This document shows, in pieces, positions 4,272 through 60,544 of a stretch of DNA of 64,000 bases. Source of the DNA: Steromphala cineraria (taxonomy: Eukaryota; Mollusca; Gastropoda; Trochida; Trochidae); NCBI GenBank assembly GCA_916613615.1, contig OU744723.1:29278296-29342295 (forward strand), in the 5' to 3' direction. Position numbers and translations under genes: made by a program. A model generated the notes under the pieces. The model had not been told where the DNA came from. It made no database searches and saw nothing but the letters and a program-made list of their open reading frames with translations. Numbering within the stretch: the stretch's first letter is position 1; the number at the start of each line of letters is the position of its first letter.

Positions 4272-4284
4272 ATAGATTATAAAA

Positions 4285-7200: not shown

Positions 7201-7685
7201 TATATACCGATACGGATTCTTTGTTATTAGAGATACAAACCGATGATGTCTACGAAGACATGAAAGAAAAAATTGACTTGTACGATACTAGTGATTTTGA
7301 TAAAGCCCACCAATTGCACAGCGTAAAAAATAAGAAGGTTTTAGGTAAATTTAAGGACGAATGTTCGGGTGTTCCTATTTCTCAATACGTCGGATTAAGA
7401 CCGAAGATGTATTGTATTAAAAAATCTGAAACAGAAATTAAGAAAGCTAAAGGAATTAAAAAGTATGTAGTAAAGAATCATACCAACCTTGAGCAGTATA
7501 AAGAGGCATTATTCGATAAGACGACTTTTAAACACGAAATGAATACTTTGAGAATTGAAGGACATAACATGTACGCAATGCGACTTAAAAAGACATCATT
7601 ATCTCTATTAGATACGAAAAGATGGATTGCCGATGGTGTAAATACATACGCATATGGGTTTTTTAATACCCATATGCAAATTTAA
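4285..7685 (+). pseudogene. polB: Family B DNA polymerase, viral/Polinton type, multiply broken
   Basis: A protein of roughly 1,100 residues can be followed through several frames: 4285-4647, 4656-5588, about 5590-6192, about 6193-6561, and 6562-7685. Motifs in order are the N-terminal GSGWVVNRIETMWLD, an exonuclease I motif YGDFES (5252-5269), a Cys/His patch with CWIC then DHCHITGNYRGAAHNKC (about 5540-5660, recombination-endonuclease-VII-like), palm motif A DANNLYGWAM (about 6430), motif B KLMNNAVYGETMEN (about 6900), motif C YTDTDSLLLE (about 7204) and GLRPKMY (about 7395). Breaks seen are a 1-base loss at 4644-4647, stops at 5586-5591, TGA at 5608-5610 where the family has Arg, TAA at 5728-5730, TAA at 6190-6192 and TAG at 6559-6561. 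The start is TTG preceded by A, as if a T was inserted into ATG. It would replicate the element; it is now dead. Confidence 0.88.
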
Positions 7686-7710
7686 AAACATAATCCTTCT
7701 TATATAAGAG

Positions 7711-8665
7711 ATGTCTTCTTTGAAGATAGAAAAGATTTATTATAGTCCCAAGGGATATTGGAAAGGCCTAGCAGCTGTAGATAAACCCGCAAAGGCTGCA
7801 AAGGTCACTAAGGCAGAAGCGAAGAGTTGGTTAATGAACAAGCCATTTGGCAAATATATTTACCCCGGCCTAAATATGTACCGAGACAAAAATTTGATAT
7901 ATCCGGGCCAAATCAAGTTCATCAAGCGGACCTACTATTTCTACCTCATGACCGAGTAAAAAGAAAGACTTATAAGTATGCATTAACTGTGGTAGACGTT
8001 GCCAGTCGATATAAGGAAGCAGAGGCATTAACTACTAAGAACTCCATAGAAGTAGCTAAAGCTTTAGAGAAAATATATAGAAGAAGTCCTTTGAACTGGC
8101 CGAGTATATTTCAAGTAGACCCTGGACGTGAGTTTATGGGAGATGTAACACAACTTTAATCGAGACATAACGTTAGAATTAGGAGAGGTGGAAAAGAAGC
8201 GCACAGAAGTCAAGTCCTCGTAGAGAGATTTAACGCTTATTCGGATATCAGTATGCTCAAGAATTAAAGAATCCAAAGACAAGATCTACCGAGTGGGTAA
8301 CTAGATTACCCGGGGTTATATCGGCAATAAATAATGAAGAGACTCGACTTATAAATAAGAAACCTATAAAAGCTATTAAATTGAAATCAGTTGTAGCTGA
8401 ATCTTCCGCACCTTTATTGAAAGATACAAAAATCATACCCGATAGAGTTAACGTAAAATATTTATATCAACCGGGTGAACTCGAGAGTGGTCAAAGATTT
8501 AGAGCAACTGATCCTATATGGTCTCTCAAGATGTATCGAATTAGTCGATATGTTTCTAAAAAAGGTGAACCGACACTTTATTACTTACAAGATGGCCCAG
8601 GGAGAGGCTTTGTTACAGAAGAATTATTAATCGTGCCATCGGATACTGTTCTGCCACCAAAATAA
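7711..8665 (+). pseudogene. Retroviral-type (rve/DDE) integrase of Polinton-like element, broken
   Basis: Starts at ATG 7711. The frame changes near 7850-7900 and the core continues in the 7827-8159 frame. Catalytic residues are visible: first Asp in HQADLLFLP, second Asp in QVDPGREFMG, and Glu in SQVLVERFN (about 8204-8235, another frame). The C-terminal part at 8381-8665 is intact and has PDRVNVKYLYQPGELESGQR and ATDPIWSLKMYRISR, an SH3-like tail usual for this integrase group. Stops and shifts lie near 7959, 8157-8159 and 8260-8380. Such an integrase inserts the linear element into the genome. The start follows the polymerase stop by 28 bases. Confidence 0.8.
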
Positions 8666-8735
8666 CAAACAAAATACCTTTCTGCTTCCCCAGTTTTTTC
8701 TTTTAAGGGATAAAATATATATATAAAAAAGAAAA

Positions 8736-9245
8736 ATGAACAATATATTATCAGATACTAGTTATGATGTTATGAATATGGTATTTAGTAAACCGAAAAT
8801 TGTTAAATATGATAATATAATATATAAAACCATAGATATTACGACTAATGGAGGCAGTAGTTTGCTGTTTCTCGTCAAAGATATAAATAATTATATCAAA
8901 AGGCAAATTATGGGTGGTTATAGTGTTGCATTAAACTTATCAGAAGAATTGAATAATACACTGTCGAATATTTTTGATCGATGTAAAAAGCATTTGACTG
9001 AAAACTACACGGAGGAAATACAACGATTAAATAAAAATATATCACAGGAAGTCTTGCATAATTTATGTAAAAGCTATAAATCCGACGAAAATTTATTATT
9101 TGCGAGGATAGGACGTTACTCAAGACTTTTCATCGTGAGGAGTACGTTTGATGATTTTATTGCAGAATTAGATGAACATTCCCCAACTCTCATAATTGGA
9201 GCCATTATAAAAATTATTCAATTTGTATTGGGCCAACTAGTGTAA
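8736..9245 (+). CDS. Unknown 169-residue protein at right end of Polinton-like element
   Basis: Intact frame from ATG 8736, preceded by an A/T run (TATATATAAAAAAGAAAA). The protein is lysine- and asparagine-rich, mostly helical-looking, with a hydrophobic C-terminus (LIIGAIIKIIQFVLGQLV) that could be a membrane anchor. I do not recognise it. It is not obviously one of the standard capsid, ATPase or protease genes. Position after the integrase and an undamaged frame suggest it belongs to the element. Confidence 0.5.
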   Translation: MNNILSDTSYDVMNMVFSKPKIVKYDNIIYKTIDITTNGGSSLLFLVKDINNYIKRQIMGGYSVALNLSEELNNTLSNIFDRCKKHLTENYTEEIQRLNKNISQEVLHNLCKSYKSDENLLFARIGRYSRLFIVRSTFDDFIAELDEHSPTLIIGAIIKIIQFVLGQLV

Positions 9246-9569
9246 ACATAAGAATAAATATTCACGAAGGATATTGTAAAGATATATATCATCCAGAATT
9301 TAAGGACCAAGTTTTATAAAAAGAAATATATCAATTTCATATTCAAAAACTGAATATGAATAGTAAAAACTGAAAAAAGAACCGTAAAAATACGTTAAGC
9401 CTTTATTACCCCTTTATTTACATTATTTATAATTATTTACATTATTTTTTAACATATTTTATACATTAAAATATGTGTGTGTCTAAAAAGGTGTTTTTTA
9501 ATGTATTTCATACATTAAAAACATGTTAAAAAAATCCTCATGAAATAACAACCCCTTTCTATATCTACT
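9246..9569. other. A/T-rich tail with nested palindromes, no gene
   Basis: No coding signal. Two adjacent palindromes occur: ACATATTTTA/TAAAATATGT around 9451-9475 and TTTTAATGTA/TACATTAAAA around 9496-9520. The outer sequences ATTTTTTAACAT and ATGTTAAAAAAAT (about 9444-9534) are also complementary, giving a nested cruciform-like structure of about 90 bp. It may be a tiny MITE or the residual end of the Polinton-like element. Confidence 0.4.
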
Positions 9570-22312: not shown

Positions 22313-22396
22313 ATAATTACGAAATTTAACGTTAAAAATATTATTTACGAAGCAAATCGTGTCATTTAGCTCTGATACACCAACATGTTGATCGAG

Positions 22397-23949
22397 CCCT
22401 TTGGTTGTTTCTGCTTCCTTCTCCCACTGTCTACCAGCCGTCTGTTTGTGCTGCTTCCTTCTCTCACTGTCTACCAGCTGTCTGGTTGTGCTGCTTCCTT
22501 CTCCCACTGTCTACCAGCCGTCTGGTTGTGCTGGTTCCTTCTCCCACTGTCTACCAGCCGTCTGGTTGTGCTGGTTCCTTCTCCCACTGTCTACCAGCGG
22601 TCTGGTTGTGCTGGTTCCTTCTCCCACTGTCTACCAGCCGTCTGGTTGTGCTGGTTCCTTCTCCCACTGTCTACCAGCCGTCTGGTTGTGCTGCTTCCTT
22701 CTCCCACTGTCTACCAGCCGTCTGGTTGTGCTGCTTCCTTCTCCCACTGTCTACCAGCGGTCTGGTTGTGCTGGTTCCTTCTCCCACTGTCTACCAGCCG
22801 TCTGGTTGTTTCTGCTTCCTTCTCCCACTGTCAACCAGCCATCTGGTTGTGCTGCTTCCTTCTCCCACTGTCTACCAGCCGTCTGGTTGTGCTGGTTCCT
22901 TCTCCCACTGTCTACCAGCCGTCTGGTTGTGCTGGTTCCTTCTCCCACTGTCTACCAGTCGTCTGGTTGTGCTGCTTCCTTCTCCCACTGTCTACCAGCC
23001 GTCTGGTTGTGCTGGTTCCTTCTCACACTGTCTACCAGCCGTCTGGTTGTGCTGGTTCCTTCTCCCACTGTCTACCAGCCGTCTGGTTGTGCTGCTTCCT
23101 TCTCCCACTGTCTACCAGCCGTCTGGTTGTGCTGCTTCCTTCTCCCACTGTCTACCAGCGGTCTGGTTGTGCTGCTTCCTTCTCCCACTGTCTACCAGCG
23201 GTCTGGTTGTGCTGCTTCCTTCTCCCACTGTCTACCAGCCGTCTGGTTGTGCTGCTTCCTTTTCTCACTGTCTACCAGCCGTCTGGTTGTGCTGCTTCCT
23301 TCTCCCACTGTCTACCAGCGGTCTGGTTGTGCTGGTTCCTTCTCCCACTGTCTACCAGCCGTCTGGTTGTTTCTGCTTCCTTCTCCCACTGTCAACCAGC
23401 CATCTGGTTGTGCTGCTTCCTTCTCCCACTGTCTACCAGCCGTCTGGTTGTGCTGGTTTCTTCTCCCACTGTCTACCAGCCGTCTGGTTGTGCTGGTTCC
23501 TTCTCCCACTGTCTACCAGCCGTCTAGTTGTGCTGCTTCCTTCTCCCACTGTCTACCAGCCGTCTGGTTGTGCTGGTTCCTTCTCCCACTGTCTACCAGC
23601 CGTCTGGTTGTGCTGGTTTCTTCTCCCACTGTCTACCAGCCGTCTGGTTGTGCTGGTTCCTTCTCCCACTGTCTACCAGCCGTCTAGTTGTGCTGCTTCC
23701 TTCTCCCACTGTCTACCAGCCGTCTGGTTGTGCTGGTTCCTTCTCCCACTGTCTACCAGCCGTCTGGTTGTGCTGGTTTCTTCTCCCACTGTCTACCAGC
23801 CGTCTGGTTCCTTCTCCCACTGTCTACCAGCCGTCTGGTTCCTTCTCCCACTGTCTACCAGCCGTCTGGTTGTGCTGCTTCCTTCTCCCACTGTCTACCA
23901 GCCGTCTGGTTGTTTCTGCTTCCTTCTCCCACTGTCTACCAGCCGTCTG
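22397..23949. repeat. 40-bp minisatellite, array 1 (about 39 copies)
   Basis: The unit is TCTGGTTGTGCTGGTTCCTT followed by CTCCCACTGTCTACCAGCCG. Main variants are GCTGC for GCTGG, a 41-bp unit with GTTGTTTCTGC, and a 31-bp unit lacking 9 bases. Because 40 is not a multiple of 3 and the unit lacks plus-strand stops, all three plus frames stay open for hundreds of codons. These are not credible genes. Confidence 0.95.
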
Positions 23950-24487
23950 GACCGGAGTTCAATCAACAGCGGCGTAGTAATACATGGTGGAGTGATCTAG
24001 GTCATACCGCGTAACCACTTTAACATTACGCCCCATATTCCATTCTAACATAACATAAACACAACAAAAACACTTTAAAACATTTGAACATCATTTTATT
24101 TGCAAGATTTTCGCAAATTATGAGGTAACACAGTAACACAAATGTTTCATTTGGCAAAATTCATTTTCTTACATGACACAACATGTATTTTGTGATGTCA
24201 TTTGACCATAGCGGAAGTGCAGTGTTACGTTTGAACATCGAAAGCGTTAAGCTTGTGGCATGTAGATTGAAAACTGGCAATTTTCAACGGAGGAGTTGTT
24301 AAGGATACCATGAGAGGCCAAAAGGGATTTAGATGCATTTATGTTGACTGCCGTGTTGGATACTGGGGCAACAGGCGACTGCAATGACACGGCATTGTTT
24401 TCAGGGTTGGGGTATGTGGCGGCAGGTACTCGTTTTTGAATGTCAAAGACTTGAGAAGACGGGACAAGCGAGAGAGCGCTAGATGGA
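23950..24487. other. Unique spacer between minisatellite arrays
   Basis: 538 bases of non-repetitive DNA. The right half contains a candidate minus-strand terminal exon (separate entry). TTTATT at 24095-24100 would be an AATAAA poly(A) signal on the minus strand. Confidence 0.5.
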
Positions 24488-24490
24488 TTC
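24247..24490 (-). CDS. Candidate terminal exon of an unknown spliced gene
   Basis: On the minus strand, sequence after a CAG at the repeat boundary reads NPSSALSLVPSSQVFDIQKR and continues open for about 80 codons (PENNAVSLQSPVAPVSN; ending FSIYMPQA stop). It is Ser/Pro/Asn-rich and unlike the repeat translation. About 150 bases downstream is AATAAA. A 3'-terminal exon preceded by a long repeat-filled intron would explain this, but no upstream exon was located and no family is recognised. Confidence 0.25.
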
Positions 24491-26765
24491 TGGTTGTGCT
24501 GGTTCCTTCTCCCACTGTCTACCAGCCGTCTGGTTGTGCTGCTTCCTTCTCCCACTGTCTACCAGCCGTCTGGTTGTGCTGGTTCCTTCTCCCACTGTCT
24601 ACCAGCCCTTTGGTTGTTTCTGCTTCCTTCTCCCACTGTCTACCAGCCGTCTGGTTGTGCTGGTTCCTTCTCCCACTGTCTACCAGCCGTCTGGTTGTGC
24701 TGGTTCCTTCTCCCACTGTCTACCAGCAGTCTGGTTGTGCTGGTTCCTTCTCCCACTGTCTACCAGCTGTCTGGTTGTGCTGGTTCCTTCTCCCACTGTC
24801 TACCAGCCGTCTGGTTGTGCTGCTTCCTTCTCCCACTGTCTACCAGCCGTCTGGTTGTGCTGCTTCCTTCTCCCACTGTCTACCAGCGGTCTGGTTGTGC
24901 TGGTTCCTTCTCCCACTGTCTACCAGCCGTCTGGTTGTTTCTGCTTCCTTCTCCCACTGTCAACCAGCCATCTGGTTGTGCTGCTTCCTTCTCCCACTGT
25001 CTACCAGCCGTCTGGTTGTGCTGGTTTCTTCTCCCACTGTCTACCAGCCGTCTGGTTGTGCTGGTTCCTTCTCCCACTGTCTACCAGCCGTCTGGTTGTG
25101 CTGCTTCCTTCTCCCACTGTCTACCAGCCGTCTGGTTGTGCTGGTTCCTTCTCCCACTGTCTACCAGCCGTCTGGTTCCTTCTCCCACTGTCTACCAGCC
25201 GTCTGGTTGTGCTGCTTCCTTCTCCCACTGTCTACCAGCGGTCTGGTTGTGCTGGTTCCCTCTCCCACTGTCTACCAGCCGTCTGGTTGTGCTGCTTCCT
25301 TCTCCCACTGTCTACCAGCCGTCTGGTTGTGCTGGTTTCTTCTCCCACTGTCTACCAGCCGTCTGGTTGTGCTGGTTCCTTCTCCCACTGTCTACCAGCC
25401 CTTTGGTTGTTTCTGCTTCCTTCTCCCACTGTCTACCAGCCATCTGTTTGTGCTGCTTCCTTCTCCCAATGTCTACCAGCCGTCTGTTTGTGCTGGTTCC
25501 TTCTCCCACTGTCAACCAGCCGTCTGGTTGTGCTGCTTCCTTCTCCCACTGTCTACCAGCCGTCTGTTTGTGCTGGTTCCTTCTCCCACTGTCTACCAGC
25601 AGTCTGGTTGTGCTGGTTCCTTCTCCCACTGTCTACCAGCCGTCTGGTTGTGCTGCTTCCTTCTCCCACTGTCTACCAGCCGTCTGGTTGTGCTGGTTCC
25701 TTCTCTCACTGTCTACCAGCCGTCTGGTTGTGCTGGTTCCTTCTCCCACTGTCTACCAGCCGTCTGGTTCCTTCTCCCATTGTCTACCAGCCGTCTGGTT
25801 GTTTCTGCTTCCTTCTCCCACTGTCAACCAGCCATCTGGTTGTGCTGGTTCCTTCTCCCACTGTCTACCAGCCGTCTGGTTGTGCTGGTTTCTTCTCCCA
25901 CTGTCTACCAGCCGTCTGGTTGTGCTGGTTCCTTCTCCCACTGTCTACCAGCCGTCTGTATGTGCTGGTTCCTTCTCCCACTGTCTACCAGCCGTCTGGT
26001 TGTGCTGGTTCCTTCTCCCACTGTCTACCAGCCCTTTGGTTGTTTCTGCTTCCTTCTCCCACTGTCTACATGCCGTCTGGTTGTGCTGCTTCCTTCTCCC
26101 ACTGTCTACCAGCCGTCTGGTTGTGCTGGTTCCTTCTCCCACTGTCTAACAGCCGTCTGGTTCCTTCTCCCACTGTCTACCAGCCGTCTGGTTCCTTCTC
26201 CCACTGTCTACCAGCCGTCTGGTTGTGCTGCTTCCTTCTCCCACTGTCTACCAGCCGTCTGGTTGTTTCTGCTTCCTTCTCCCACTGTCTACCAGCCGTC
26301 TGGTTGTGCTGCTTCCTTCTCCCACTGTCTACCAGCCGTCTGGTTGTGCTGCTTCCTTCTCCCACTGTCTACCAGCCGTCTGGTTGTGCTGGTTCCTTCT
26401 CCCACTGTCTACCAGCCGTCTGGTTGTGCTGCTTCCTTCTCCCACTGTCTACCAGCCGTCTGGTTGTGCTGCTTCCTTCTCCCACTGTCTACCAGCGGTC
26501 TGGTTGTGCTGGTTCCTTCTCCCACTGTCTACCAGCCGTCTGGTTGTGCTGCTTCCTTCTCCCACTGTCTACCAGCCGTCTGGTTGTGCTGCTTCCTTCT
26601 CCCACTGTCTACCAGCCGTCTGGTTGTGCTGCTTCCTTCTCCCACTGTCTACCAGCCGTCTGGTTGTGCTGCTTCCTTCTCCCACTGTCTACCAGCCGTC
26701 TGGTTGTGCTGCTTCCTTCTCCCACTGTCTACCAGCCGTCTGGTTGTGCTGCTTCCTTCTCCCAT
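24488..26765. repeat. 40-bp minisatellite, array 2 (about 57 copies)
   Basis: Same unit as array 1. The last six or so copies (about 26.53-26.76 kb) are identical, showing recent homogenisation at the right edge. A variant block of about 200 bp containing CAACCAGCCATC occurs in identical form at about 22751, 23312 and 24880, so both arrays share higher-order segments. Confidence 0.95.
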
Positions 26766-30753: not shown

Positions 30754-30781
30754 TTTGGCAAAGAAAGAACAGGTCCAGCTA
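30754..30781 (+). pseudogene. LINE C-terminus, left fragment (28 bp)
   Basis: This short stretch encodes LAKKEQVQL in the frame that resumes at 53127 (with the duplicated 9 bp counted once). It is the 5'-truncated start of a LINE tail. Confidence 0.65.
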
Positions 30782-34739: not shown

Positions 34740-35065
34740 AAACGTTGGCATTTTCGTTGACACCGTTATGGCGGCCATTTTTTATTTTCAAAATGGCCGC
34801 CATAAATCACAAATTTTGCTATAAATCGGCTTCTTGTCAATTTAGAAACTAAAATTAACATTGTAATTCCATGTTTTTGTGGTCAAGGATGCTAATGGTG
34901 ATAGCATAAATAGGACCAGAGGCATGAAAAGGGTTTTATGTGACTATTTTTAATTTTAACTCTTTACTGCTTGACATTGCCATGCCTCAACCCCTTTCCT
35001 GCTTGCCTGACAAGCACCTGCACTGCCCCTTACTGCTCGCAAATTTAAAAAAAAAAAAAAAAATT
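34740..35065. repeat. Dispersed repeat copy 1 with poly(A)-like run
   Basis: AAATGGCCGCCAT ... CTTCTTGTCAATTTAGAAACT ... CATGTTTTTGTGGTC (about 34790-34935) is repeated in the same orientation at about 44517-44650. A-rich run at 35048-35063. Non-coding. Confidence 0.55.
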
Positions 35066-36792
35066 AAAATTCAATTAATTCAACTGTTTAAGAAATGTTC
35101 ATGCCCTTGAATGACCCTTTTGTCAATTCAGAGGTATTTGTTTGCAATTTTGATATTCAAATTGCTCATTACTATTCATTACTTAAAAGGTACAATACTG
35201 CAAAGCGGAAAAACATACATCAGTCATAAAAAAGAATAAACCATAGGTAATATATTGATAATGATTTTATTTAATCTCTTTTATGAATTTTATCAATACT
35301 GTCACCAAAATTCCACATATATTCCTGAAGAAAATGACACTTATTAGGATAAATTTGATGTTTAACCAATAATTCAGGGGAGATAATCCGGGTCAACTCA
35401 AATCAACAAGTTCAATCAGAAGGTGATCTTCAGTTTCCACAAAGTAAATCACAATATGAAAGATTACATAACAATAATGTTAGGCACTTTTACATTATAT
35501 ACAATTCTAAATCATCAATTTCACCAAATTCAAAAGTCTACTGCAATCATGGTAATGTAAATTCTAGACTAGTCTGTTATCCAGACCCTAAAGCGAAAAA
35601 ATTAAACGAGCCTTCTTAAGTCTAGACAATGTTGGCAAGTCTAGATGCCTCAGCCTCAGCTGAAATTAAGAATTGTTCAGGGCTCCTTTTTATTTTAATA
35701 TCAAATATTTTAAATTAAATAATGTTTTTGAAGATGAAAATAACCAGAGTTTCATTTTTTTCATTATTAGCAAAAATTCATGATATCTATGACACTTGAT
35801 GATCAAGATATCTTTCAAGTCAAATTGAACAAACTTACAAACTCCAGTTTAGTGAAAATCATTCAACAACTTGTCTTTATTTGACAATTCTATCTCAAAA
35901 TTAAAAATTGTCCAGGATTATCTCCCTTGGCAATGAAATCTGTAGACCTCTTTCATGTCATAAAAGAAATGAAAGTCAACCAGAATTGAACCTGATTTCC
36001 TTATTTAAATGTTAACAAATAACAAAAATATGAACTTTACTAGATCCAATGAAACAAAATCCCTTTACTGGCTTGTAATGAGAGCTCATTGTGATGGTAA
36101 ATGTACTGGTATATGTGTTATTGGCAGATTCTATTACAGACCTTACCTATATTATTTGTTTACATTAGTAATACAAACAAGGGCCGATCAACACATTTAC
36201 TTTCAAATAACAAAATTTTGCCTTTTAAAATATTGAATCACACAATTACAAAAACATTTTCAAGTTCCTTTCTTGTTTTGCTGATTAAGTTTCCTTAAAT
36301 TTAGATATGGTTATCTTGGTCAAATCGTTGAATTTAATTTGTTTTACTGTCTGGCTGTATAATAAAAACCGGATCATAACATAAGTCATCATAGACATGG
36401 AATATAATTTTTCAAATTTAATCCAGTGCACTGGTAAAACAATCTTTCACCATCCATGCCATCAGGATATTTATACCTATTTGACACTACATGAAAAAGT
36501 ATACTGGATATTATTAACGACTCATAATCTTGCATATTCCTAAAAGTTAAAACTATGAATTATCAACTGGCTTGAACTGAACCTGCATTTACATAACTAA
36601 ATCACCATTATTAATATAATCCACAACAGCATAAATTGTTGTTAGATTGTGTCAAAGATTCTGATGGCTCCATATTGTTCACATTATACCTGAATCAAAC
36701 AGGTATATTTTTTTTTCTGTGTTTTTTCTTCTAAAGTTGACTCCATAAATCTTCTGAGTTAGATAACCCGGCACTGGACTGCATGTGGAATA
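35066..36792. other. A/T-rich interior, no recognised feature
   Basis: Short open frames without motif content. One box-like sequence (ATCAATACTGTCACC near 35292) resembles the type B box described for 40.4-43.6 kb. Sequence just left of the last candidate exon would be its 3' untranslated region. Confidence 0.35.
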
Positions 36793-39700
36793 TCACAGAC
36801 TGTTCTCAACTCCAGCAGTGGTCACAAACTCTCCATCCTGGATAAGCTTCCACTTTGAATAGTTCCTGCAATAGAAAGTATAAATAAATGATATTGACGG
36901 CTCAACACAAATAATGAATAATAATCAGATTTAATATACATGCATTTGACTGATATATTGAAACATTAGGCTTTGTACTGAATGATTCAATTAAATCCAA
37001 ATTGTATCAAAATAAACAGTGAAATCTAAAATCAATTTCAAGTATTTTCACAGATACTTGGTGAATTTGTTCTATGAAATTTCTCTAAAACAACTGTGAA
37101 ATTTCTGTTTTTCTCATCAAATTATTGCTTTCTTAAAATTGGACAGTTGGCCCTCCATGTATCACACAGTTTGCAATATTAGAGTGAGTTGTTGTATATC
37201 ATCTCTTAGGAAATATTGCATGTATTTGTAAGGATTTAGTTGTATCTATCATATTCTTATCCCTAGTTAAATTCAGCTAATAAAATCACAATGACAGCAA
37301 TATAAAAACATATATGGGTGGAATTCAAAATTGGTAGGATTTTCAATTTCTCATAATGGTCAAAATAAACTCCTCAAAAAGGATTATTTTTTTATTCAAA
37401 TAAATTGGCAAACACTTGATTATGAGAAAATACAAACAGTCAGGCTCAAGTGTACCAATTAAAATTTTAGTGGAAATATAATTAATTAAACGGGAGGAAA
37501 ACGTCCTGACCGTTACCGTTTCTTAATCAGAAAAAAGAATTTTAACTAAAATTAAGAAAAATCTTTCAACGATGGCATTTACATCTTTTACATTGTATAA
37601 ATGACACTTGAAGGTAAAAACTGTTGCAATTAATCTTTAAAGTCCTTTTTTTGTATCTTTTCATTGTTTAACACAATTTAATAGCATTTTTCTCAGAAAC
37701 TTTTGTGTTTATAGTTTTCAATAGGTGAAATTATCTCAAAAAAGCATCTGCTGCTAATCCGAGAACACGTTTTGATGACATCTACGTAAAGAAGAGAGCT
37801 TCGTGTATTATCATGAATTAATTAGAGAAGTCAATTAGCTCCAGTAACGGCTGGGACAGAACTGATAACGGCCGGGACATGTATGGTAACGGGCTGGACA
37901 TAAGTCTTCTTCAATTCAATTCACTATAGAGACAAAACATGAAAGATAAAAATAAATATTCTTTAACTTTATTGTTAACTCTATTTTGAACAAAAAGTGA
38001 AATGTGAATTAGAAATGGTAAATTTTAGATTGTATTGCATATTTTATTCACTGCCATGGTAACGGTATGGACATTTGTTATGAAATCAACAACAAAACTT
38101 ATAAATAAATTTGTACTTTTTAATATTAACAGATTAAAGCTTGTAAAGAATACAAATACACATTGTCTTGATTTTGACACCTAATTATTATTGAAAGAAA
38201 AGTGTTTTTGGCAATCAAGTAAATGAGGGGTAACGGTCAGGACATTTTTGGTAACGGTCAGGACATCTGTGTAAATACCAAGATTTTTTTTCCATTGTAT
38301 AACTTGTAAAGAATAGAATTCTGAAAGATACTGCAACAACTATCAAACTGCACACTGTGACAAATGATTAAGCTACACAGGCAACTGCAAATTATTGCTG
38401 ATATTGTTCCATACATTTTGCACATTTTGTCCAAACCGTTACCATAGTTTTCTTTGTCAATTATCTCATAAAAATTAAGACATCTATCAGAAATATATGC
38501 AGTGGTTTCTGCTATTAATATTCAATAGATAACTAAAAATTCACTTACTAACCTCAGAAAATATTCTTCAAAAAGAAAATTTATTTGACATATGTCCATA
38601 CCGTTACTGTTTATTTGTCCTGACCATTACTTCAAACTTTTATTTTAAAACCACTTCATTAAAACTACTCTGAACAGTAAACTCCCAAGCCTAAACAATT
38701 TATGATCTTAAAATAATTTCATTATTGATATTTCTTAAAATATTTATGAATAACTAAGTTAGTTTCTCCAAATAAAAATGTGTTTGTCCTGACTGTTACC
38801 AGAACTGTCCTGACCGTTACTTTGTAAAAAGGTAACGGTCAGGACCGGTAATGGTCAGGACAATTTGTAAATAATTTAAAATAACACAATGAATGATCCC
38901 TTAAAGATGTCAAAGGACATGCCTTCCACGTCTTCCAGTTCTGAGCAACAAAGCTCATTATTATTGAGACAAAGGGAGAATACAAATGCACAAAATCCAA
39001 CGGTCTGGACATTTAAGGGTGACACATCATATTTATACCTGCTTGTTGGTGTCATATTTCTGCAAAATGTACCGAATCCTTTTATTTCACTAACTGTCAT
39101 ATGCAAAGAGCATTTGTCAATCAGACACAGCAAATATAATTCCAATCCAGTTCCAGGGGGAAATTATTGAAGGAAATATCTACATGGTAACGGTCAGGAC
39201 ACAAAATCTCAGGACAGGCATGTTTCAATTTGTAGAATTTTTATTTTTGAAATCAATACAAAATTTAATGCAGTTTGTACATGCATGATCAATGATTATA
39301 AGAATAAAATATATTTTTTTGTTTGATTATGTTTATTTGTACTCGTTGACCAGGGGTAATATATCACTCAGCGCTTTGAGCATGCAATGTGCATGGATAT
39401 ATGCGCTATATAAATGGACTATTATTATTATTATTATTATTATTATTTGTATGATATTTTGGCAAAGTTGTATGAGGACCGTCACCTCAGGACAGAGTAA
39501 ATATGCCAAATTTGACCCTAAAATGTTATTAGATTAAAAAATTTAAATGGAAAAATTAATGGTTGATCACGAAAATGTACTTGTCAATAGCTAAATATGT
39601 TTTCTAGAACAAAAAATCCCTAAAAGACACACTATGTTTTTTAAAAATTGGACCGGACAGAAAAACCTACCAATTTTGAATTCCACCCATATATGTTTGT

Positions 39701-42700
39701 GAATTTTTACAGACAGAAAAGAAACTTAATATAGCAACAGAATTGAACAAGCACATAGTTCACCTTTGTTTAGCTTGAACAATCAAATTGCAGCCCAGGC
39801 AGTTTGGTTGATCCTTCCTCTGGAAATTTATTCACTGCAAAAAAAATAAGATTTCAATATAAATTCATAAACAATATAAATATACATACTAGTATGATAT
39901 TTTAAAGCTTTGGAGTATTACATGAACAATCATGGGTGATTGATAAAAATAATACTGGCTCAGTTTGTGCTCTCTTGCAATATATTCACAAATTTGATAA
40001 AATTGAAAAAGAGTTTCATGAAAGGAATATTTTATCACAACAATCTTTCAGTTTAAAAACATGCACATTTTGCTTCTTCTTTAAAGTTTAAGAAAACTTC
40101 ATAGTTTTCTTTCATTTATGTTTTTTTGTTTTGGTAATCATTTTGTAGATTCTTGAAGAAGTACCAGTTTGCATGCTCATGTTTTGTCTCACTTTCCAAC
40201 ATAACAATAAATATGTTCAATAAAATAATTTGATTTTGATATTCTGAAAATTCAAAACTCAAACATTTATAAGGGCAATGATATCACAGCGAATAATAAC
40301 ACATTTAAATGATCTCCTTAGATCTATATGAATAAAATCATGTTATAATTACATAACTTGTTGCAATAAATAAGTTATATGAGTCAAAATCCTGGAGAGT
40401 CTGATTATTAGGACATAAGAAAATGAATTTCAAAATATTATTAAACTCTTTTTATTTTACCATGTTGTGTTGATTAAACATTGAAAATTCTGAACAAAAA
40501 TGATGCAAGCTTAACTCTAATTATTAATTATGTAATTTAAAGAACTTTGACAGCCATAATTACAAGATGTCAATACTGCTACCGAAATTTATGCTAAAAT
40601 TACCAAAAATGTAACTTTATCAAAGGCATATTTGATTATGGGATTAACTTACATTAACAAATTGTTGAATTTGGATAAATAAAAATCAACATTTTTTGTT
40701 ATTCATTATTTTCATCAAAGTTTCATGTTCAAATAATGAAAAAATATAGTTTGAAATGATTGAACTTTTCAACTATCTTCAGAAAAACAACTTTTCTTTC
40801 ATAAAATTTGATATGTCATAACTCTTATAGTTAATCATTTATATTCTAAATTAGTTAAATTATTATATCTGGTTATTTGTTTGAAAAAATAACATTTTTG
40901 TGTAGGTGACAGTGTTTGACATCATCAGTAGCAGTATTGACTTAAGTGGTGACAGTTTTGACAATCAAACTTATCCTAAATGATTAAAAGAAAGATAACT
41001 GAAAATGTTGAATTCATAACAGATTAGCAAAAGCACATCTTAGAAATTGTTGTTAATAACAACATAATACACTTTTACAACTATATCCTTTTTTCATTAC
41101 AATGAAAAAGGGACCTAGTTGGTGGCCTTATTGACTTCAATGGTGGCAGTCTTGACTTTTATGGGTTCAAATCCTCATAATTGCCTAGTATTCAGTGATA
41201 AGTTATACATAACTCGGGGACATGGTTGAATATCAAAATACATTCAATAGCATACTGGTAACATTTGACAGCAAATTTTTTTATTTACTTTTCATCATTG
41301 ATGGAAGCAGTATTAACAACTATGGTAGCAGTATGGACAAACACAATTATCCTTTCGTTAACTAGATAAAAACACAATTAAACCAATACATATAAAAGAA
41401 CAATTCAAAGTTTAAAACCATGAAACATCTGCAACTGGAACAATTAGAACATTAGGTGTTTTTCATTACTTTTCTTTGTTTATACTATCCATGGTAGCAG
41501 TATTGTCAACCACGGTGGCAGTATTGACAAACACAATTATCCTTTTGGTTGAACACATTGGAATAAGATCAAAGCTAACTTTAAACCCATACATGCATGA
41601 AAAACAGTTAAAGTTTAAAACTATCAACATTGGCATTGGGAACAAATTGGACAGAATCTGTTTTGACATTATAACAATCGATGGTAGCAGTATTGACATA
41701 CATGGTATGGACTCACAACAATCATTTTTGTGAGTGACATGAAACATTCTCATTCACATATGTATATAATGTATATACCTGAGCAGTTTCTGATCTCTTC
41801 TGTTGTATCGTGAGCATTTGAGTATAATTTAATTCATCTAATTCAAGATCATTAGCTTCTGATACTGTAACTTATGATGAATGGATAGGACCAAAATCTA
41901 TTGTTGAATTTTAGACTGTTAATACATTTATCAGGAATTTCCAAACATCATTCCTACATGTAAAATACCAAGTTGATTATTCTATGTGAATGCGGTGTAC
42001 TTTCATAAAATTGTTATCAATATAAATTGCATCAACAAATATATTACTTATCAAGGAAACATTTTGTCAATTCTGATAAAAAGGTTGTCACAACTGCTAC
42101 TATGTTAGATGACAAAAAAGCTACAAAGAGTGTGAAAACAAATTTATAAAAAATTTACAAAACATCTAAAGACATTTCAGCTCAAGAAAAGGTGTTTTAC
42201 CAGAACATTTATTATATCCATGTCATATTAAAGTGAAAATTTAAGATTAGCCAGTGATCACTGCAACCGGATATGTCAATACTGCTACTGCTATAACAAT
42301 AACAAAGGATATCTTCCCTCAATAAATGTTACATTTTCTTTTTTAATATTTTCAATTTAACTTCTTTTATCACATTGGAATTTATGAAATTGAAACCCCC
42401 GAGTTTGATCAGGAACCAGTTGTAATTTGCATTATCTGAGGAATTGTCAACTACTGTCACCACTTTAGTCATTACTGCTACCAAAATGTTTTTCACATTT
42501 AAAACAAATTCGAAGAGGCTTTCAAATTAAAAAACCCAGTGAAAATTATCCCCATTAAAAATATTTCAAAAATAATAGATTTGCATTTATTTATTTCAGG
42601 ACAGGTAAGTTATTTATTGATTATTTGATGAACTTGTCCATACTGTCACTATTCGTGTCAATACTGCTACCTGTCAAGATGAGTTTCAACCCTTTCACAC

Positions 42701-44050
42701 TAATTTTGAGTATATTCACTCAAAAATATATATGTGCTTAATTCTGTCTTATAAAGGCCACATATAAACATACAATAAGAGAAATCATCAAATTTCTGTT
42801 ACTACTATTAACAAATTTGAAATAAATAGTCAATACTGCCACCATAAATGTCAAAACTGTCACTTTTCATCCGGAAGCAGTATTGACAGTAGCAGTTTTG
42901 ACATCCTTAGATGTAAATAAACAATAAAATGATAAATGATCTCTCAACACAGAAAAGCACATATCATGATAAGCATGTTCTTAACACATTTTAAACTATT
43001 CTAAGATTGAACTTCACATATATTCCTTTACCCCTGAAATGTTGGTGACACTGTTGACGCAAATAATTTATAGATCGATAGTTGTGTACACTTGATGTTT
43101 GATTTTGATGAAACTTGGCAGGAACTGAAATTCAATGTCATGCCATTTTAAAGACATGAAGTTGAAGGTCCAGAAAAGGAAGTTACCTTTGTGACAGACT
43201 AAATGAGTGTTTATTGTTTTCCAAACATTGGTCATGGTAGCAGTATTGACACATACTACTGTGACAGGTGTTCTAAACTACAAACACAAAAATGGAAAAG
43301 TTATTTTTCAGTTTTCAACTGTATATACTAAACCCTTTTTGTTACTGAATAACTTCACACAAAAAGAATTTTTGAATTTTATAGCAATTTGTCAGAAACT
43401 ATATGTAAAAGTTGTCTTTCTTGCTTTGGGACAGGCAAAATTCGATAAAATCACATCAAAAGTGATCTCTCAAAGTCGATATTTTTTATGAACAAATAAA
43501 AAAGGATATGTGCTCTACTCAATTAATCTTGTTCCACATATTAGATTAAAAAAATTATACTAAAACCAAATTAAAAGTGAAAATTTATCATTGGACGGAA
43601 AAATTTGACTATTCAGGATGTTGACTCATATATCTTTCAAAAAAATGAATGACAGGTGAAGAAAATCATTTGTCTGATATTTATTCTGTCAACTCACATT
43701 CAATACGTGATTACGCATCATTGACTAAAACTGACGCATTTGGTTGATTGAAGACAGATTAAATCATAAATGCATGCATGACTCGAATGACTCAAAATGT
43801 GTTGATATTTTTACAGGGATAAATTAACTTCCCTTCATTCGACTGTATAACAGTTATAATAAAATTATTTACAGAAAGGTTGATACTCACTGTCACCAAA
43901 TGAAGTGTTATGTCTGATGGCTATAGTGTCGATTTGATTGTCCTGTTGACGGCGACGACATGATTCTCGTTTTCGATGTAAACAAACCGGGTCCACTTCC
44001 GGGTCGCTCACACCGGTAACAATATTACTGTCACATATGCTATTTGCCAA
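36793..44050 (-). CDS. Candidate four-exon gene inside the 22.3-kb element, unknown function
   Basis: Minus-strand exons: exon 1 ending 43891 at donor A/GTGAGT; exon 2 41864-41779 (acceptor TTACAG, donor CAG/GTATAT); exon 3 39834 or 39819 to 39764 (acceptor TTTTTTTTGCAG or CCAG, donor AAAG/GTGAAC); exon 4 36865-36793 (acceptor TTCTATTGCAG, stop TGA 36795-36793). Phases agree at all three joins. Exon peptides include SEANDLELDELNYTQMLTIQ, DQPNCLGCNLIVQAK (a CxxC pair) and NYSKWKLIQDGEFVTTAG. Weak points: the exon 1 frame that fits has no ATG, while ATG 43961 (MSSPSTGQSNRHYS) is one frame off, and the stronger exon 3 acceptor puts TGA first. Probably a recently damaged gene; family not recognised. 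Confidence 0.45.
37503..39201. repeat. Type A box array (GGTAACGGTCAGGACA)
   Basis: Box starts: 37503(-), 37843(+), 37864(+), 37885(+), 38058(+), 38229(+), 38250(+), 38428(-), 38593(-), 38616(-), 38785(-), 38806(-), 38831(+), 38847(+), 39186(+), plus a partial near 38998(+). Pairs step by 21 bases in several cases, and loci recur at roughly 165-215 bases. Sequence between boxes is much less conserved. Confidence 0.85.
39419..39448. repeat. (ATT)n microsatellite
   Basis: About nine ATT triplets in domain A, right of the box array. Confidence 0.9.
40381..43627. mobile_element. Domain B: sister element with type B 16-bp box array
   Basis: Left end GAGTCAAAATCCTGGAGAGTC; the right end in reverse complement reads GAGTCAACATCCTGAATAGTC. 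They match at most positions. Flanks are TTATAT and ATATAT. It contains 22 boxes of the GGTAGCAGTATTGACA type. Candidate exon 2 (41779-41864) lies in the middle, where box orientation switches from plus to minus. Whether B is a mobile element or an expanded array around the exon is open. Confidence 0.6.
40568..43251. repeat. Type B box array (GGTAGCAGTATTGACA) on a roughly 190-bp period
   Basis: Box starts: 40568(-), 40927, 40948, 41121, 41142, 41303, 41324, 41493, 41514, 41683 (+), 42086, 42274, 42445, 42467, 42635, 42656, 42828, 42849 (-), 42873, 42888, 43043, 43236 (+). Doublets are stepped 21-22 bases; loci are mostly 182-194 bases apart. Some units also share AATTATCCTTT after the box and AAAGTTTAAAAC further on, showing an old tandem unit. 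Confidence 0.88.
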
Positions 44051-44404: not shown

Positions 44405-44655
44405 GAAAAGGCGTAGAATCGCGTAGAAAAGCAGTAAAGGGCAGAAGCGTAGAATCGCGTAGAAAAGCAGTAAAGGGCAGAAGCGTAGAATCGCGTATAT
44501 AAGCAGTATAGGGTTAAAATGGCCGCCATCAAATTTTGCAATATCACGGTTTCTTGTCAGCTTAGAAACTAGAATAAAAATGATAATTCTATGTTTTTAT
44601 GGTCCACGACTGTAATGGTGACAACACAAAAATGATCAGAAGCATTGAATAAAAG
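44405..44655. repeat. 36-bp tandem units and dispersed repeat copy 2
   Basis: GCGTAGAATCGCGTAGAAAA then GCAGTAAAGGGCAGAA repeats about 2.7 times (44409-44510). It is followed by AAATGGCCGCCAT ... GTTTCTTGTCAGCTTAGAAACT, a diverged direct copy of 34.79-34.93 kb. Confidence 0.65.
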
Positions 44656-47330: not shown

Positions 47331-47464
47331 ATTTAAAACAAAGCTTCAGCTTTCTACGCCTTTTGGTTCTTGACTAGAAGTCAAAAGTGCACAAAATTTA
47401 TGGACAGATGGACAGACGCGGGACACCAGGCTAGATGAGCTAAAAGTGCATTTTGTAACTCAAA

Positions 47465-50400
47465 ACTGCAGCAGCAGTCAAGTTGATCATTCAAAGTCAA
47501 CATCAAAATGCATAGTTAAACTTAAAACTGCAGCAGCAGTCAAGTTGATCATTCAAAGTCAACATCAAAATGCATAGTTAAACTTAAAAATGCAGCAGCA
47601 GTCAAGTTGATCATACAGAGTCAACATCAAAATGCATAGTTAAACTTAAAACTGCAGCAGCAGTCAAGTGGATCATTCAAAGTCAACATCAAAATGCATA
47701 GTTTAACTTAAAACTGCAGCAGCAGTCAAGTTGATCATACAAAGTCAACATCAAAATGCCTAGTTTAACTTAAAACTGCAGCAGCAGTCAAGTTGATCAT
47801 ACAAAGTCAACATCAAAATGCATAGTTAAACTTAAAACTGCAGCAGCAGTCAAGTTGATCATACAAAGTCAACATCAAAATGCATAGTTAAACTTAAAAA
47901 TGCAGCAGCAGTCAAGTTGATCATACAAAGTCAACATCAAAATGCATAGTTAAACTTAAAAATGCAGCAGCAGTCAAGTTGATCATACAAAGTCAACATC
48001 AAAATGCATAGTTAAACTTAAAACTGTTGCAGCAGTCAAGTGGATCATTCAAAGTCAACATCAAAATGCATTGTTTAAATTAAAACTGCAGCAGCAGTCA
48101 AGTGGATCATACAAAGTCAACATAAAAATGCATCTTGTAACCTAGAACTGCAGCAGCAGTCAAGTTGATCATTAAAAGTCAACATCAAAATGCCTAGTTT
48201 AACTTAAAACTGCAGCAGCAGTCAAGCGGATTATTCAAAGTCATCATCAAAATGCATCTTGTAACCTAGAACTGCAGCAGCAGTCAAGTGGATCATTCAA
48301 AGTCATCACCAAAATGCATCTTGTAACCTAGAACTGCAGCAGCAGTCAAGTGGATCATTCAAAGTCATCACCAAAATGCATAGTTTAACTTAAAACTGCA
48401 GTAGCAGTCAAGTGGATCATTCAAAGTCAACATCAAAATGCATAGTTTAACTTAAAACTGCAGCAGCAGTCAAATTGATCATACAAAGTCAACATCAAAA
48501 TGCATCTTGTAACGTAGAACTGCAGCAGCAGTCAAGTGGATCATACAAAGTCAACATCAAAATGCATAGTTTAACTTAAAACTGCAGCAGCAGTCAAGTG
48601 GATCATTCAAAGTCATCACCAAAATGCATCTTGTAACGTAGAACTGCAGCAGCAGTCAAGTTGATCATTCAAAGTCATCACCAAAATGCATAGTTTAACT
48701 TAAAACTGCAGCAGCAGTCAAATTGATCATACAAAGTCAACATCAAAATGCATCTTGTAACGTAGAACTGCAGCAGCAGTCAAGTGGATCATTCAAAGTC
48801 ATCACCAAAATGCATAGTTTAACTTAAAACTGCAGCAGCAGTCAAGTTGATCATACAAAGTCATCACCAAAATGCATAGTTTAACTTAAAACTGCAGTAG
48901 CAGTCAAGTGGATCATTCAAAGTCAACATCAAAATGCATAGTTTAACTTAAAACTGCAGCAGCAGTCAAGTGGATCATACAAAGTCATCACCAAAATGCA
49001 TAGTTTAACTTAAAACTGCAATAGCAGTCAAGTGGATCATACAAAGTCATCACCAAAATGCATAGTTTAACTTAAAACTGCAGTAGCAGTCAAGTGGATC
49101 ATTCAAAGTCAACATCAAAATGCATAGTTTAACTTAAAAATGCAGCAGCAGTCAAGTGGATCATACAAAGTCAACATCAAAATGCATCTTGTAACAAAGA
49201 ACTGCAGCAGCAGTCAAGTTGATCATTCAAAGTCATCACCAAAATGCATAGTTTAACTTAAAACTGCAGCAGCAGTCAAGTTGATCATACAAAGTCAACA
49301 TCAAAATGCATCTTGTAACGTAGAACTGCAGCAGCAGTCAAGTGGATCATTCAAAGTCATCACCAAAATGCATAGTTTAACTTAAAACTGCAGCAGCAGT
49401 CAAGTTGATCATACAAAGTCAACATCAAAATGCATCTTGTAACGTAGAACTGCAGCAGCAGTCAAGTGGATCATTCAAAGTCAACATCAAAATGCATAGT
49501 TTAATTTAAAACTGCAGCAGCAGTCAAGTGGATCATTCAAAGTCATCATCAAAATGCATAGTTTAACTTAAAACTGCAGCAGCAGTCAAGTGGATCATAC
49601 CAAGTGATCATCAAAATGCATTTTGTAACCTAGAACTGCAGCAGCAGTCAAATAGATCATACAAAGTCAACATCTAAATGCATAGTTTAACTTAAAACTG
49701 CAGCAGCAGTCAAGTGGATCATACAAAGTCAGTACCAAAATGCATTGTTAACTTAAAACTGCAGCAGCAGTCAAGTGGATCATTCAAAGTCATCACCAAA
49801 ATGCATAGTTTAACTTAAAACTGCAGCAGCAGTCAAGTGGATCATACCAAGTGATCATCAAAATGCATCTTGTAACCTAGAACTGCAGCAGCAGTCAAAT
49901 AGATCATACAAAGTCAACATCTAAATGCATAGTTTAACTTAAAACTGCAGCAGCAGTCAAGTGGATCATTCAAAGTCATCACCAAAATGCATAGTTTAAC
50001 TTAAAACTGCAGCAGCAGTCAAGTGGATCATACCAAGTCATCATCAAAATGCATCTTGTAACCTAGAACTGCAGCAGCAGTCAAATAGATCATACAAAGT
50101 CAACATCTAAATGCATAGTTTAACTTAAAACTGCAGCAGCAGTCAAGTGGATTATTCAAAGTCATTACCAAAATGCATAGTTTAACTTAAAACTGCAGCA
50201 GCAGTCAAGTTGATCATTCAAAGTCAACATCAAAATGCCTAGTTTAACTTAAAACTGCAGCAGCAGTCAAGTGGATTATTCAAAGTCATTACCAAAATGC
50301 ATAGTTTAACTTAAATCTGAGCAGCAGTCAAGTTGATCATTCAAAGTCAACATCAAAATGCATAGTTTAGCTTAAAACTGCAGCAGCAGTCAAGTGGATT

Positions 50401-50510
50401 ATTCAAAGTCATTACCAAAATGCATAGTTTAACTTAAATCTGAGCAGCAGTCAAGAGGATCAAACAAAGTCAACATCACAATGCATCTTGTAATGTAGAA
50501 CTTCAGTGGC
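47465..50510. repeat. About 62-bp satellite, roughly 50 copies
   Basis: The core ACTGCAGCAGCAGTCAAGT is followed by GATCATACAAAGTCAACATC and AAAATGCAT. Units end in one of two alternative linkers, AGTTTAACTTAAA or CTTGTAACCTAGA, and secondary variants (TTGATC/GGATC, CAACATC/CATCACC) assort into higher-order blocks. A three- to four-unit block containing TACCAAGT recurs near 49598, 49845 and 50031. Non-coding. Confidence 0.95.
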
Positions 50511-53126: not shown

Positions 53127-53135
53127 GTCCAGCTA

Positions 53136-57575: not shown

Positions 57576-60130
57576 TTATATGTTCATAAAGTTTTCAACT
57601 TTTCTCCAGAAGTCATTGCATTTAATAAAAACATGCTGTAGACTTTCGGGTTCAGATTCACAAAAAGAGCAAATATTAGTTTGAATTAAATTCATTTTCA
57701 ACAACTCCTTTCTAGTGTAAATTGCTCTGTTAATAAATCTATACTGAAAATCCAAGAGTTTTACATCTTTAGTACAATTTCTATATCTTGTAAACACTAC
57801 ATTCCATTCAATATTTAAATCAAGTTCATTTTGCCATTTTTGACACACTTTTAGTGAGGTGTCATTAGCAATCAATTTATCATCGAAATTTCTACATCCT
57901 TTTTGTTGAGAAAGTAAGTCTTGAAGAGTTTGGCTTAACAAAAGGTTTTGTTTCTGCTGTTGATTAGATAAAAGAGTGTTTTCCCATATTTTGGGGATGT
58001 TCAATATTATCTTATTGTACTCAAGAATTGTTCCCTTGATACGATATAGGTTTTTAACTTCATTAAAAGTCCAAAATTCATTATAACCCCAAATATCTCT
58101 TACTGTGTGAATACCTCTGTTAAACCAACTCTCAATTAGAAAATTTCTATGTCTTAGATGATGATTTAACCATAAAGGTTCAGCTAATATATCTTCTACC
58201 TGAGATGTGTCTACGTCATGATATTGTTTATAATATTTACCCCAGATTGTTAAAATTTCATTCCAAAAAGGGTTATCAATAGATACATGCTTATCTATGT
58301 GTGCCCCTAGAAGAAATATTTTAATAAATGGAAATGAGCTTAGATTGTGAGTTGTTTGTTTTTTTATATACCTTCTAAGGCAAGATAGTTTAAGTGCATT
58401 TATAAAGGAACTTATATCAATCATTCTTAATCCACCCTCTTCATGTTTTCTACATATAGTTGTCCTTTGGATTTTATCCTTCTTGCCATCCCATATGAAG
58501 TTATACATAATTTTATTCAATTGGTCAAGAAATTGCTTAGGAGGGGATGGTAATACAGAAAAAATATGAACTAAAGTTGATATTGCAAGAGTTTTTAGAA
58601 CAGTAATTTTCCCTTGTATAGTAAGTTTTCTCTTTTTCCATCCAGCAAGAAGTCTGTTTATTGTTTCTAATCTTTTTCTAGTATTGATTATCCATAGGTC
58701 CTCCAAAGTGGGATTGAGATGAATACCAAGGATGTTGAAGTCAATCTAAACCACTGCCTGAGCACAATTTCACACTGCTTCCAATCATTGAACCAATTCA
58801 AATAGCTTTAGTTTTTTCAATGTTTATCTTAAGTCCCGACATCTTAAAGATCAGTCTGTTAGTAATACAAGAACTAAGTATCTTATACAAGGTATTTAAA
58901 AGTGATACCGGTATAGGGCGCCAATTTTTCATATATCTTTTATCTTTGTTTTGTTTGGGGACACAAGCAATTATGCCTCTGTTTATGGTATAAGATAAGT
59001 GATCTTTGTCCAAAATTTCATGAATATATCTATATACCCAAAACTTTAGGTCTTTCCAAAACCATTTAAAAAATTCAACTGGAAAGCCATCCAAACCTGG
59101 GCTCTTATTATTTTTCATGGCTTTTACAGTTTCAGATAGTTCTTTCATTTCAATGGGTTTGTCTAGCTTCATTGCAAAAGAGCTATTAAGTGAAGGAGTG
59201 TTAATGGTATTTAAAATTTCATCTGTATTATATTAAATGTCATCAGCAGCGTAGAGACTATGATAAAAGTGTTCTTGTTCCTGTAAAATGGCTCTACCAT
59301 CAGTCAAAAGTTCATCCTTTTCATTTATCAAAGAATTTATAAGTTTGCTGGTATAATTTCTATTTTCTAAGTGGCAAAAATATTTTGTTGGTTTTTCTCC
59401 TTCAAACCATTGGATTCTATTTCTTATTTGTCTACCTTTTTCTTCCTCCTCTTTAATTTGTTCAAGTTTTGACATATTTTTAGAAAGTTTTGCAAACATA
59501 GCTTTATCAACATTTTGAAAATTTTCTCTTATTTCATCTTCTAACTTTTTTATTTCACTTTCCAGATAATTTGTTTTTTTTCTGTTTTCATTTTTTTTAG
59601 ATATGATGCAAATGTGATTGATTTTCTTCTGACTTTCATGAGAAAATTTTCCATAAAGAGCTCAGCAGAGATAGTTAGATTTAAGTTAAGATCATCTATT
59701 TCTCTTGTGTCATCATTTTCAGCTGAGTATTCATCTTTTGTTTCCATTAATATTTCCTTCACAAGTTTATTATAGTCCTTATTGTAAAGAAGAGAAGTGT
59801 TTAGTTTCAAGTATCCTTTCCCTTTCTCCTTACTGTGTGCATTGGAGAAAGTTAATGTAATTGCAGAGTGGTCCGATTTATATCCTGCTAGAATTGAAGT
59901 TTCTATGGTTAAATTGGATATATCATCAGATACAAGAAAGAAATCTAACCTGGCTTGTTGCCTAGGTTTTTTTTTCCACCAAGTCAATTTTCTAATATTT
60001 GAGTTTCTGGTTCTCCATAAATCTGTCAAGTTATTTGACTCTATATTATCTAATACAATTTTCCTGGCTTTAGGATTATTTATGTGCTTATAATTCTCTA
60101 AATCGATATCAGCATTAAGGACAAAAATTA
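57576..60130 (-). pseudogene. LINE ORF2, L1/Tx1-like, with RT palm deleted
   Basis: Minus strand from about 60.13 kb: endonuclease end (LTDLWRTRNSNIRKLTWW, AGYKSDHSAITLTF); linker RIQWFEGEKPTKYFCHLENR; RT fingers KNNKSPGLDGFPVEFFKW and GIIACVPKQNKDKRYMKNWR. It then jumps from SSCITNRL directly to SGLKINIEKTKAI: motifs A, B and YADD have been deleted (near 58.85 kb). A long open C-terminal part (58706-57576) has GWKKRKLTIQGKITVLKTLA, and the zinc cluster CSFCESEPESLQHVFIKC. 5' truncated inside the endonuclease. Same broad clade as 10.8-13.3 kb. Confidence 0.85.
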
Positions 60131-60544
60131 GTTAATTGATATATCAAAAGTCTTCAAATTGATTTACAGCTCATAAGCATTTGGAATCAAGTGTTCCCTC
60201 ATGTATTTACAGCATACGATCAACCTGTCTGGGTGTTTACAAATTAAAATGTTATTAATCAAGTCCATTTATTTGCAAATTAGGTTGCAATTGTCCAAGC
60301 TGCACATGAAAACTGCAGCTCCCGGTAATTCTAACAAAAAAGTGACAACAAAGCATCAAAAGAGACATTTTTTGTTCTGCAAGTATACGTCTTGGTATTA
60401 TTGATATTACGGTGTACAAAAACTTATCCACATACTTCGAGTTTATGTTAAAACGCTGGAAAAACGTTCAACTGGTGATTGATCGATCTGCATGGTGGTT
60501 GACATTTTGTTTGATTAAAGCGTCGTCATAGCAAAATCAACAAT
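60131..60544. other. Probable 5' region of the following LINE
   Basis: Non-coding 414 bases between the truncated LINE and ORF1; likely includes the internal promoter/5' UTR of the plus-strand LINE. No motif verified. Confidence 0.35.

Follow-up and report, generated by a model that had tools for sequence, protein, structure and literature searches.

Two described systems come closest to the locus reported here. In Arabidopsis, VANC proteins target short motifs packed densely into the non-coding DNA of VANDAL transposons; the motifs differ from family to family, and their co-evolution with the protein has been proposed (PMC5735166). In CENP-B box satellites, a 17-bp box recurs at nucleosome-scale intervals (PMC8122249; PMC10716449), and CENP-B can open chromatin through the distortion of linker DNA (PMC10716449). 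The locus considered here lies in a stretch of 64,000 nucleotides from the gastropod Steromphala cineraria (assembly GCA_916613615.1, contig OU744723.1, positions 29,278,296 to 29,342,295), which is called the window and to which all positions below refer. Two elements bounded by terminal inverted repeats (TIRs), A (37306-39698) and B (40380-43630), each carry an array of 16-bp boxes. The box sequence differs between the elements throughout the arrays, the orientation plan and unit distances correspond, and the DNA between the boxes has no significant similarity between A and B. These features are read here as operator arrays in two related non-autonomous TIR transposons, served by a putative DNA-binding protein of changed specificity and possibly spaced by nucleosomes, an interpretation that is tentative and to which a probability of roughly 0.45 is given.

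The VANC targets and the CENP-B boxes are the nearest analogues, and A and B belong to neither group. As in the VANDAL elements, short motifs are clustered in the non-coding DNA of A and B and differ between relatives (PMC5735166; PMC10398659). However, the VANC21 motifs, as those reports describe them, run in a single orientation and are tied to tandem repeats, whereas the boxes of A and B occur in two orientations, at fixed spacing and between unalike spacers. The Mutator-type 9-bp target duplication is also lacking from both elements, and no VANC protein was seen in the window. The resemblance to the CENP-B box is one of size and interval: the published box, CTTCGTTGGAAACGGGA (PMC8122249), was compared directly with the boxes of A and of B and matches neither. 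Furthermore, CENP-B satellites are described as homogeneous head-to-tail arrays, whereas the boxes here lie in dispersed TIR elements, follow an inverted plan and are separated by unalike spacers, and no such array is present between 37.3 and 43.6 kb. In word searches of the open-access literature, no description of an element of this kind was found.

The ends of the two elements have short motifs in common. Element A, to which no strand is assigned, has TIRs of 39 nucleotides with 97% identity (37306-37344 on the plus strand and 39660-39698 on the minus strand), and its TATATG ends lie at 37311 and 39693. Element B, likewise without an assigned strand, has TIRs of 30 nucleotides with 80% identity (40380-40409, plus; 43599-43628, minus), or of 38 nucleotides with 82% identity in an alternative detection, and its TATATG ends lie at 40376 and 43632. 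The sequence TATATGRGT followed by G or C is found at all four ends and nowhere else in the window, and TTTTTCYGTCC is also common to the right ends of A and B. Either TA or TATA might be the target duplication, although both are palindromic and inseparable from the TIR; the 9 bp that flank the TATATG ends differ between left and right for each element. No open reading frame of at least 100 amino acids from a start codon occurs between 30,261 and 46,203, and hence there is none in A or B. The window holds two related copies of this element type, A and B themselves, which are most simply viewed as belonging to one group of non-autonomous DNA transposons.

An iterated weight matrix yields 16 boxes in A, with a consensus close to GGTAACGGTCAGGACA, and 24 sites in B, with a consensus close to GGTAGCAGTATTGACA. 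Twenty-two of the B sites were retained: those at 41653 (score 13.7) and 42110 (score 11.5) were left out as weak and off the grid, and that at 42253 (score 13.6, no stronger and below the shuffle maximum of 15.1) was kept because a strong box lies at a distance of exactly 21 bp. In the minus series of B, a 17-bp variant read directly at about 42446, GGTGACAGTAGTTGACA, serves as a unit edge for spacing only and is not among the 22. When one mismatch is allowed, the shared pattern GGTANCNGTNNNGACA is found 27 times in the window, where 0.53 occurrences would be expected and none of 100 shuffles gives as many; of these sites, 12 fall within domain A and 13 within domain B, 25 in all. If no more than three mismatches from each element's own consensus are allowed, A has 14 sites and B has 17, compared with shuffle means of 0.003 and 0.013. 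An earlier note on this DNA had described two domains with differing boxes that share GGTA-C-GT---GACA, and the matches, the weight matrix and the shuffles all agree with it. The same note had named an equal box density in shuffled A/T-rich sequence as a result that would undo its claim; the maximum was one site in 300 shuffles per domain. Chance or an A/T-rich background is thus rejected as the source of the boxes.

The commonest letter differs between A and B at box positions 5, 7, 10, 11 and 12. Intermediate variants are present at 38058 (GGTAACGGTATGGACA), 38593 (AGTAACGGTATGGACA) and 41324 (GGTAGCAGTATGGACA), and these favor a single ancestral box behind both forms. Beyond the 16 bp, the flanks of the A boxes carry information at the background level, with position -14 as the sole column over the 99% null level. 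The flanks of the B boxes have 15 such columns, which mostly reflect the position of the partner box, together with position 0 and two columns farther upstream. In A, 13 of the 16 boxes have CG at positions 6-7, whereas CpG outside the A boxes is depleted (14 observed, 40.3 expected). If the A boxes had all begun with CG and had decayed independently to this observed-to-expected ratio of 0.35, retention in at least 13 of 16 would have a probability of 0.0002.

The letters of the boxes also bear on the possibility that a host DNA-binding protein, CENP-B-like or Myb-like, uses them to package, silence or regulate the elements. Box A contains TAACGG, which we take to be a Myb-type core and which would speak for such a factor. 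The size of the box is near that of the 17-bp CENP-B box, and CENP-B itself derives from a pogo-like transposase (PMC8122249). However, the TAACGG core is absent from box B, two box sequences in sister elements fit one conserved host protein poorly, and elements should not retain sites that silence them. A host factor is considered improbable.

Where the boxes lie is relevant to a further proposal, in which the transposase of the elements binds the boxes directly, as happens at the subterminal repeats of other transposon groups, and the array serves transposition and not a chromatin state. Within the window, and outside masked tandem arrays, the boxes are limited to the two TIR elements, and a difference in box accompanies a difference in TIR. 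Nonetheless, the boxes extend throughout each element, the first stands about 190 bp from the left end, and none falls within a TIR, where the best matrix scores are negative. Subterminal repeats are usually close to transposon ends. Direct transposase binding is considered improbable as well, about as much so as a host factor.

Several other searches define the extent of the boxes. With tandem arrays and low-complexity words masked, no third domain of this kind was found in the window, and among other clustered 16-mers the best-ranking ones, located at 32.7-34.5 kb, reach five copies at most. An isolated B-like box, GGTGACAGTATTGATA, lies outside both domains on the minus strand (35291-35306) with a score of 17.9, above the shuffle maximum for B. 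The region gave no match to a known RNA family at the gathering threshold, and an RNA of such a family is rejected. Neither the box pair nor either TIR was found in viral contigs, nor the box pair in prokaryote contigs; these are not animal genomes and have no bearing on copy number.

The boxes of both elements follow one orientation plan of minus, plus, minus and plus blocks, in which the first minus block is a single box. In A, this first box (37502-37517, found by the GGTANCNGTNNNGACA scan and the weight matrix) is followed by a plus series at 37843-38265 (boxes at 37843, 37864, 37885, 38058, 38229 and 38250), a minus series at 38428-38821 (38428, 38593, 38616, 38785 and 38806) and a last plus series at 38831-39201 (38831, 38847, 38996 and 39186), all from the weight matrix. 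In B, the first box (40568-40583, found in the same two ways) precedes a plus series at 40927-41698 (40927, 40948, 41121, 41142, 41303, 41324, 41493, 41514 and 41683), a minus series at 42086-42864 (42086, the weak 42253, 42274, 42467, 42635, 42656, 42828 and 42849) and a last plus series at 42873-43251 (42873, 42888, 43044 and 43236), again from the weight matrix. The second switch from minus to plus is tight in both, as had been noted earlier: two minus boxes are followed by two plus boxes at 38785-38862 in A and at 42828-42903 in B, and the gap at the switch spans 9 bp in A (38822-38830) and 8 bp in B (42865-42872). When unit orientations were shuffled 200,000 times, the plan arose in both elements at once in 9 cases, in A alone in 4753 and in B alone in 433, and the plan proposed in the earlier note thus holds. 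The layout, which that note had called identical, is better described as similar, since A has 10 units and B has 14, with three units each in the inner plus and minus series of A and five each in those of B.

The distances between units correspond as well. Counted from the TATATG end, the first box begins at almost the same distance in both elements, 191 bp for A and 192 bp for B. Proceeding from the left, the distances between unit centers in A and B are 362 and 369.5, 194 and 194, and 181.5 and 182 bp; from the right, they are 190 and 192, 157 and 163.5, 43.5 and 42, 191 and 193, and 176.5 and 189 bp. The mean difference over these eight matched gaps is 4.1 bp, which was equaled by 5 of 100,000 permutations of gap order and by none of 100,000 random placements, for a matching from both ends that was chosen post hoc and omits the middle gaps (one in A and five in B). 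Unit centers recur with a period of 188 bp in A, for which 1 of 3000 random placements was as good, and of 191.5 bp in B, for which none of 3000 was, the random sets having been scored on a coarser period grid than the real data.

Two regularities that go beyond the earlier note are found at a finer scale. A distance of exactly 21 bp separates the boxes in 11 of the 14 close same-strand pairs (four of six in A and seven of eight in B), and the DNA between successive units is of nearly constant length. The 13 inter-unit spacers of the inner series and the A center measure 145-162 bp; without the A center, the remaining 12 have a mean of 153.1 bp and a standard deviation (SD) of 3.6. In A, where units consist of one, two or three boxes, the gap between units is steadier (SD 4.8) than the distance from center to center (7.2) or from start to start (20.5). 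The minus series of B behaves in the same way, with SDs of 2.6, 7.3 and 12.5, and in its plus series the gap and the start-to-start distance have the same SD of 5.0.

The spacers themselves have turned over. A blastn comparison of A with B gives short matches only, several of them at boxes, with a best E value of 0.002. The ten corresponding spacer pairs of A and B align with z scores from -0.8 to 2.5, and all 60 A-B combinations have a mean z of 0.16 and a maximum of 2.7. Within B, one neighboring pair is clearly alike (z = 10.3) and the remaining pairs have z scores of 2.9 or less; within A, no pair exceeds 1.8. Recent tandem duplication as the only cause is rejected, given that the spacers are unalike apart from one pair. 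Since the boxes and their distances are alike and the spacers are not, box and distance appear to have been kept while the intervening DNA was replaced. When neutral decay to an equal loss of similarity was simulated, with between 0.03 and 0.2 indels assumed per substitution, the SD of length differences was about 9 to 36, compared with 5.3 observed over six A-B spacer pairs. With six pairs and an assumed host indel rate, a constraint on spacer length beyond neutral decay is suggestive only.

A different history would make each array the decayed remnant of a satellite-like array, in which a unit of about 190 bp was repeated both in tandem and in inverted orientation, in the manner of the repeats at the center of bivalve HINE elements. 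In that case, the spacing would be a relic of unit length, the boxes would be the part of the unit that changed most slowly or was homogenized last, and no dedicated protein would be needed. The periods of 188 and 191.5 bp and the duplicated spacer pair in B would fit such a history, and satellite-like arrays with units of 160-180 bp are reported to be common in non-autonomous elements of oysters (PMC7492417). The Helentron-associated HINEs also resemble A and B in being non-autonomous and in having repeat units of nucleosome scale, but their central repeats are described as recognizable head-to-tail tandems, whereas A and B have TIRs and lack such an array (PMC7492417). Moreover, the other spacers are not significantly alike, and neutral decay would thus have had to spare 16 bp and a length. 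Both copies of the duplicated pair are 153 bp long despite 16 gap columns on each side of their alignment, and the gap in A is steadier than the period. A satellite relic is viewed as unlikely, even if it has better prospects than either a transposase or a host factor.

The operator-array interpretation combines these observations in one scheme. That A and B are relatives which share an architecture but differ in their boxes, as the earlier note had proposed, is well supported by their TIR ends, orientation plan and unit distances together with the lack of significant spacer similarity. As non-autonomous TIR transposons, they would descend from a common ancestor, and the boxes of each array might be the sites at which a sequence-specific protein, supplied in trans, binds DNA. 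A pairing at 21 bp corresponds to two helical turns and would place paired sites on the same face of the DNA. A nucleosome core occupies 147 bp; about 153 bp between units could thus leave room for one core, with the sites in the linkers. Bound along the whole element, the protein might hold the chromatin in an open state or prepare it for transposition. This role, which would somewhat resemble that of VANC on VANDAL elements, was chosen because no described case is nearer than the VANC targets. Its specificity may have changed between the two lineages and the sites followed, with pairing, spacing and orientation retained. A diversification of putative binding specificity between A and B is a reasonable inference.

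A number of observations weigh against this scheme. Several intervals depart from 153 bp: 325 and 343 bp after the first box, 366 bp at the B center, 133 and 140 together with 174 and 176 bp in the last series, and 457 and 339 bp before the right TIR. Some of these have the length of two spacers plus one missing unit, and no site scored well as a decayed box where the grid is empty; decayed boxes at those positions are rejected. Without the weak box at 42253 and the variant at 42446, two of the 13 spacers would be lost. The argument for length constraint relies on indel rates that were assumed, and the contrast is modest when the lowest of the simulated rates is applied. No nucleosome signal was detected in the spacers, where AT-dinucleotide periodicity has z scores of at most 1.5 at seven periods and GC content is flat, so it is length by itself that suggests a nucleosome fit. 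Protein searches named no candidate for box binding, and the sample is two elements in one window.

Both elements lie within a larger one, which also goes beyond the earlier note. This enclosing element of 22,345 bp (30782-53126, no strand assigned) has TIRs of about 1.6 kb, made up largely of tandem arrays of 46-bp and 206-bp units, and is flanked by a perfect 9-bp duplication, GTCCAGCTA (30773-30781 and 53127-53135). Judged by structure, it is of Foldback/Mutator type. It shares the 9-bp target duplication and the minisatellite or tandem-repeat ends with the Foldback/Mutator-like and Rehavkus elements, as these are described in PMC6446971 and PMC4079207, and differs from them in its length of 22.3 kb and its TIRs of about 1.6 kb. 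A and B may have inserted into the enclosing element or may be part of it, and a single copy is compatible with both. A direct repeat of about 136 bp with 76% identity (34790-34925 and 44516-44645) flanks the A-B region inside it, and a tandem array of about 49 copies of a 62-bp unit lies at 47456-50486. The enclosing element also contains a frame-broken gene on the minus strand at 44.8-47.2 kb, for which 125 relatives were found, those named being mostly uncharacterized and from fish and other animals. A Pfam scan that covered this coding-like stretch matched no family in any of eight pieces, and no Mutator-type transposase was found there.

Elsewhere in the window, a tandem array of about 111 copies of a 40-bp unit (22395-26764) has a strong A-T skew and open reading frames throughout. 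LINE-like reading frames lie on the minus strand at 57576-60131, with the zinc-binding domain of reverse transcriptase at 57576-58745. A run of plus-strand open reading frames at 1000-9300 includes an integrase core domain (7812-8159), and no polymerase family was matched; our impression, which we take as an assumption, is of a Maverick/Polinton-type element.

A broader proposal follows from the operator-array interpretation, and it is regarded as doubtful at present. It would hold that an animal transposon lineage carries a nucleosome-gauged operator array, in which paired 16-bp sites occupy successive linkers under a fixed orientation plan around a divergent four-site core, and that a dedicated protein co-evolves with them. 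Sister lineages would keep the geometry and switch the recognition sequence at nearly every site, as an animal counterpart of sequence-specific anti-silencing. Even if the array is merely a satellite relic, the boxes and their spacing have outlived all other detectable similarity between the two elements. If the operator-array interpretation is right, selection on geometry (helical phase, nucleosome-sized gaps and orientation) could be told apart from selection on sequence in adjacent elements of two specificities, and it would become possible to test directly how a DNA-binding protein co-evolves with some twenty dispersed sites. The locus would then also provide an animal candidate for sequence-specific anti-silencing, which in the parts of the literature examined is a plant system.

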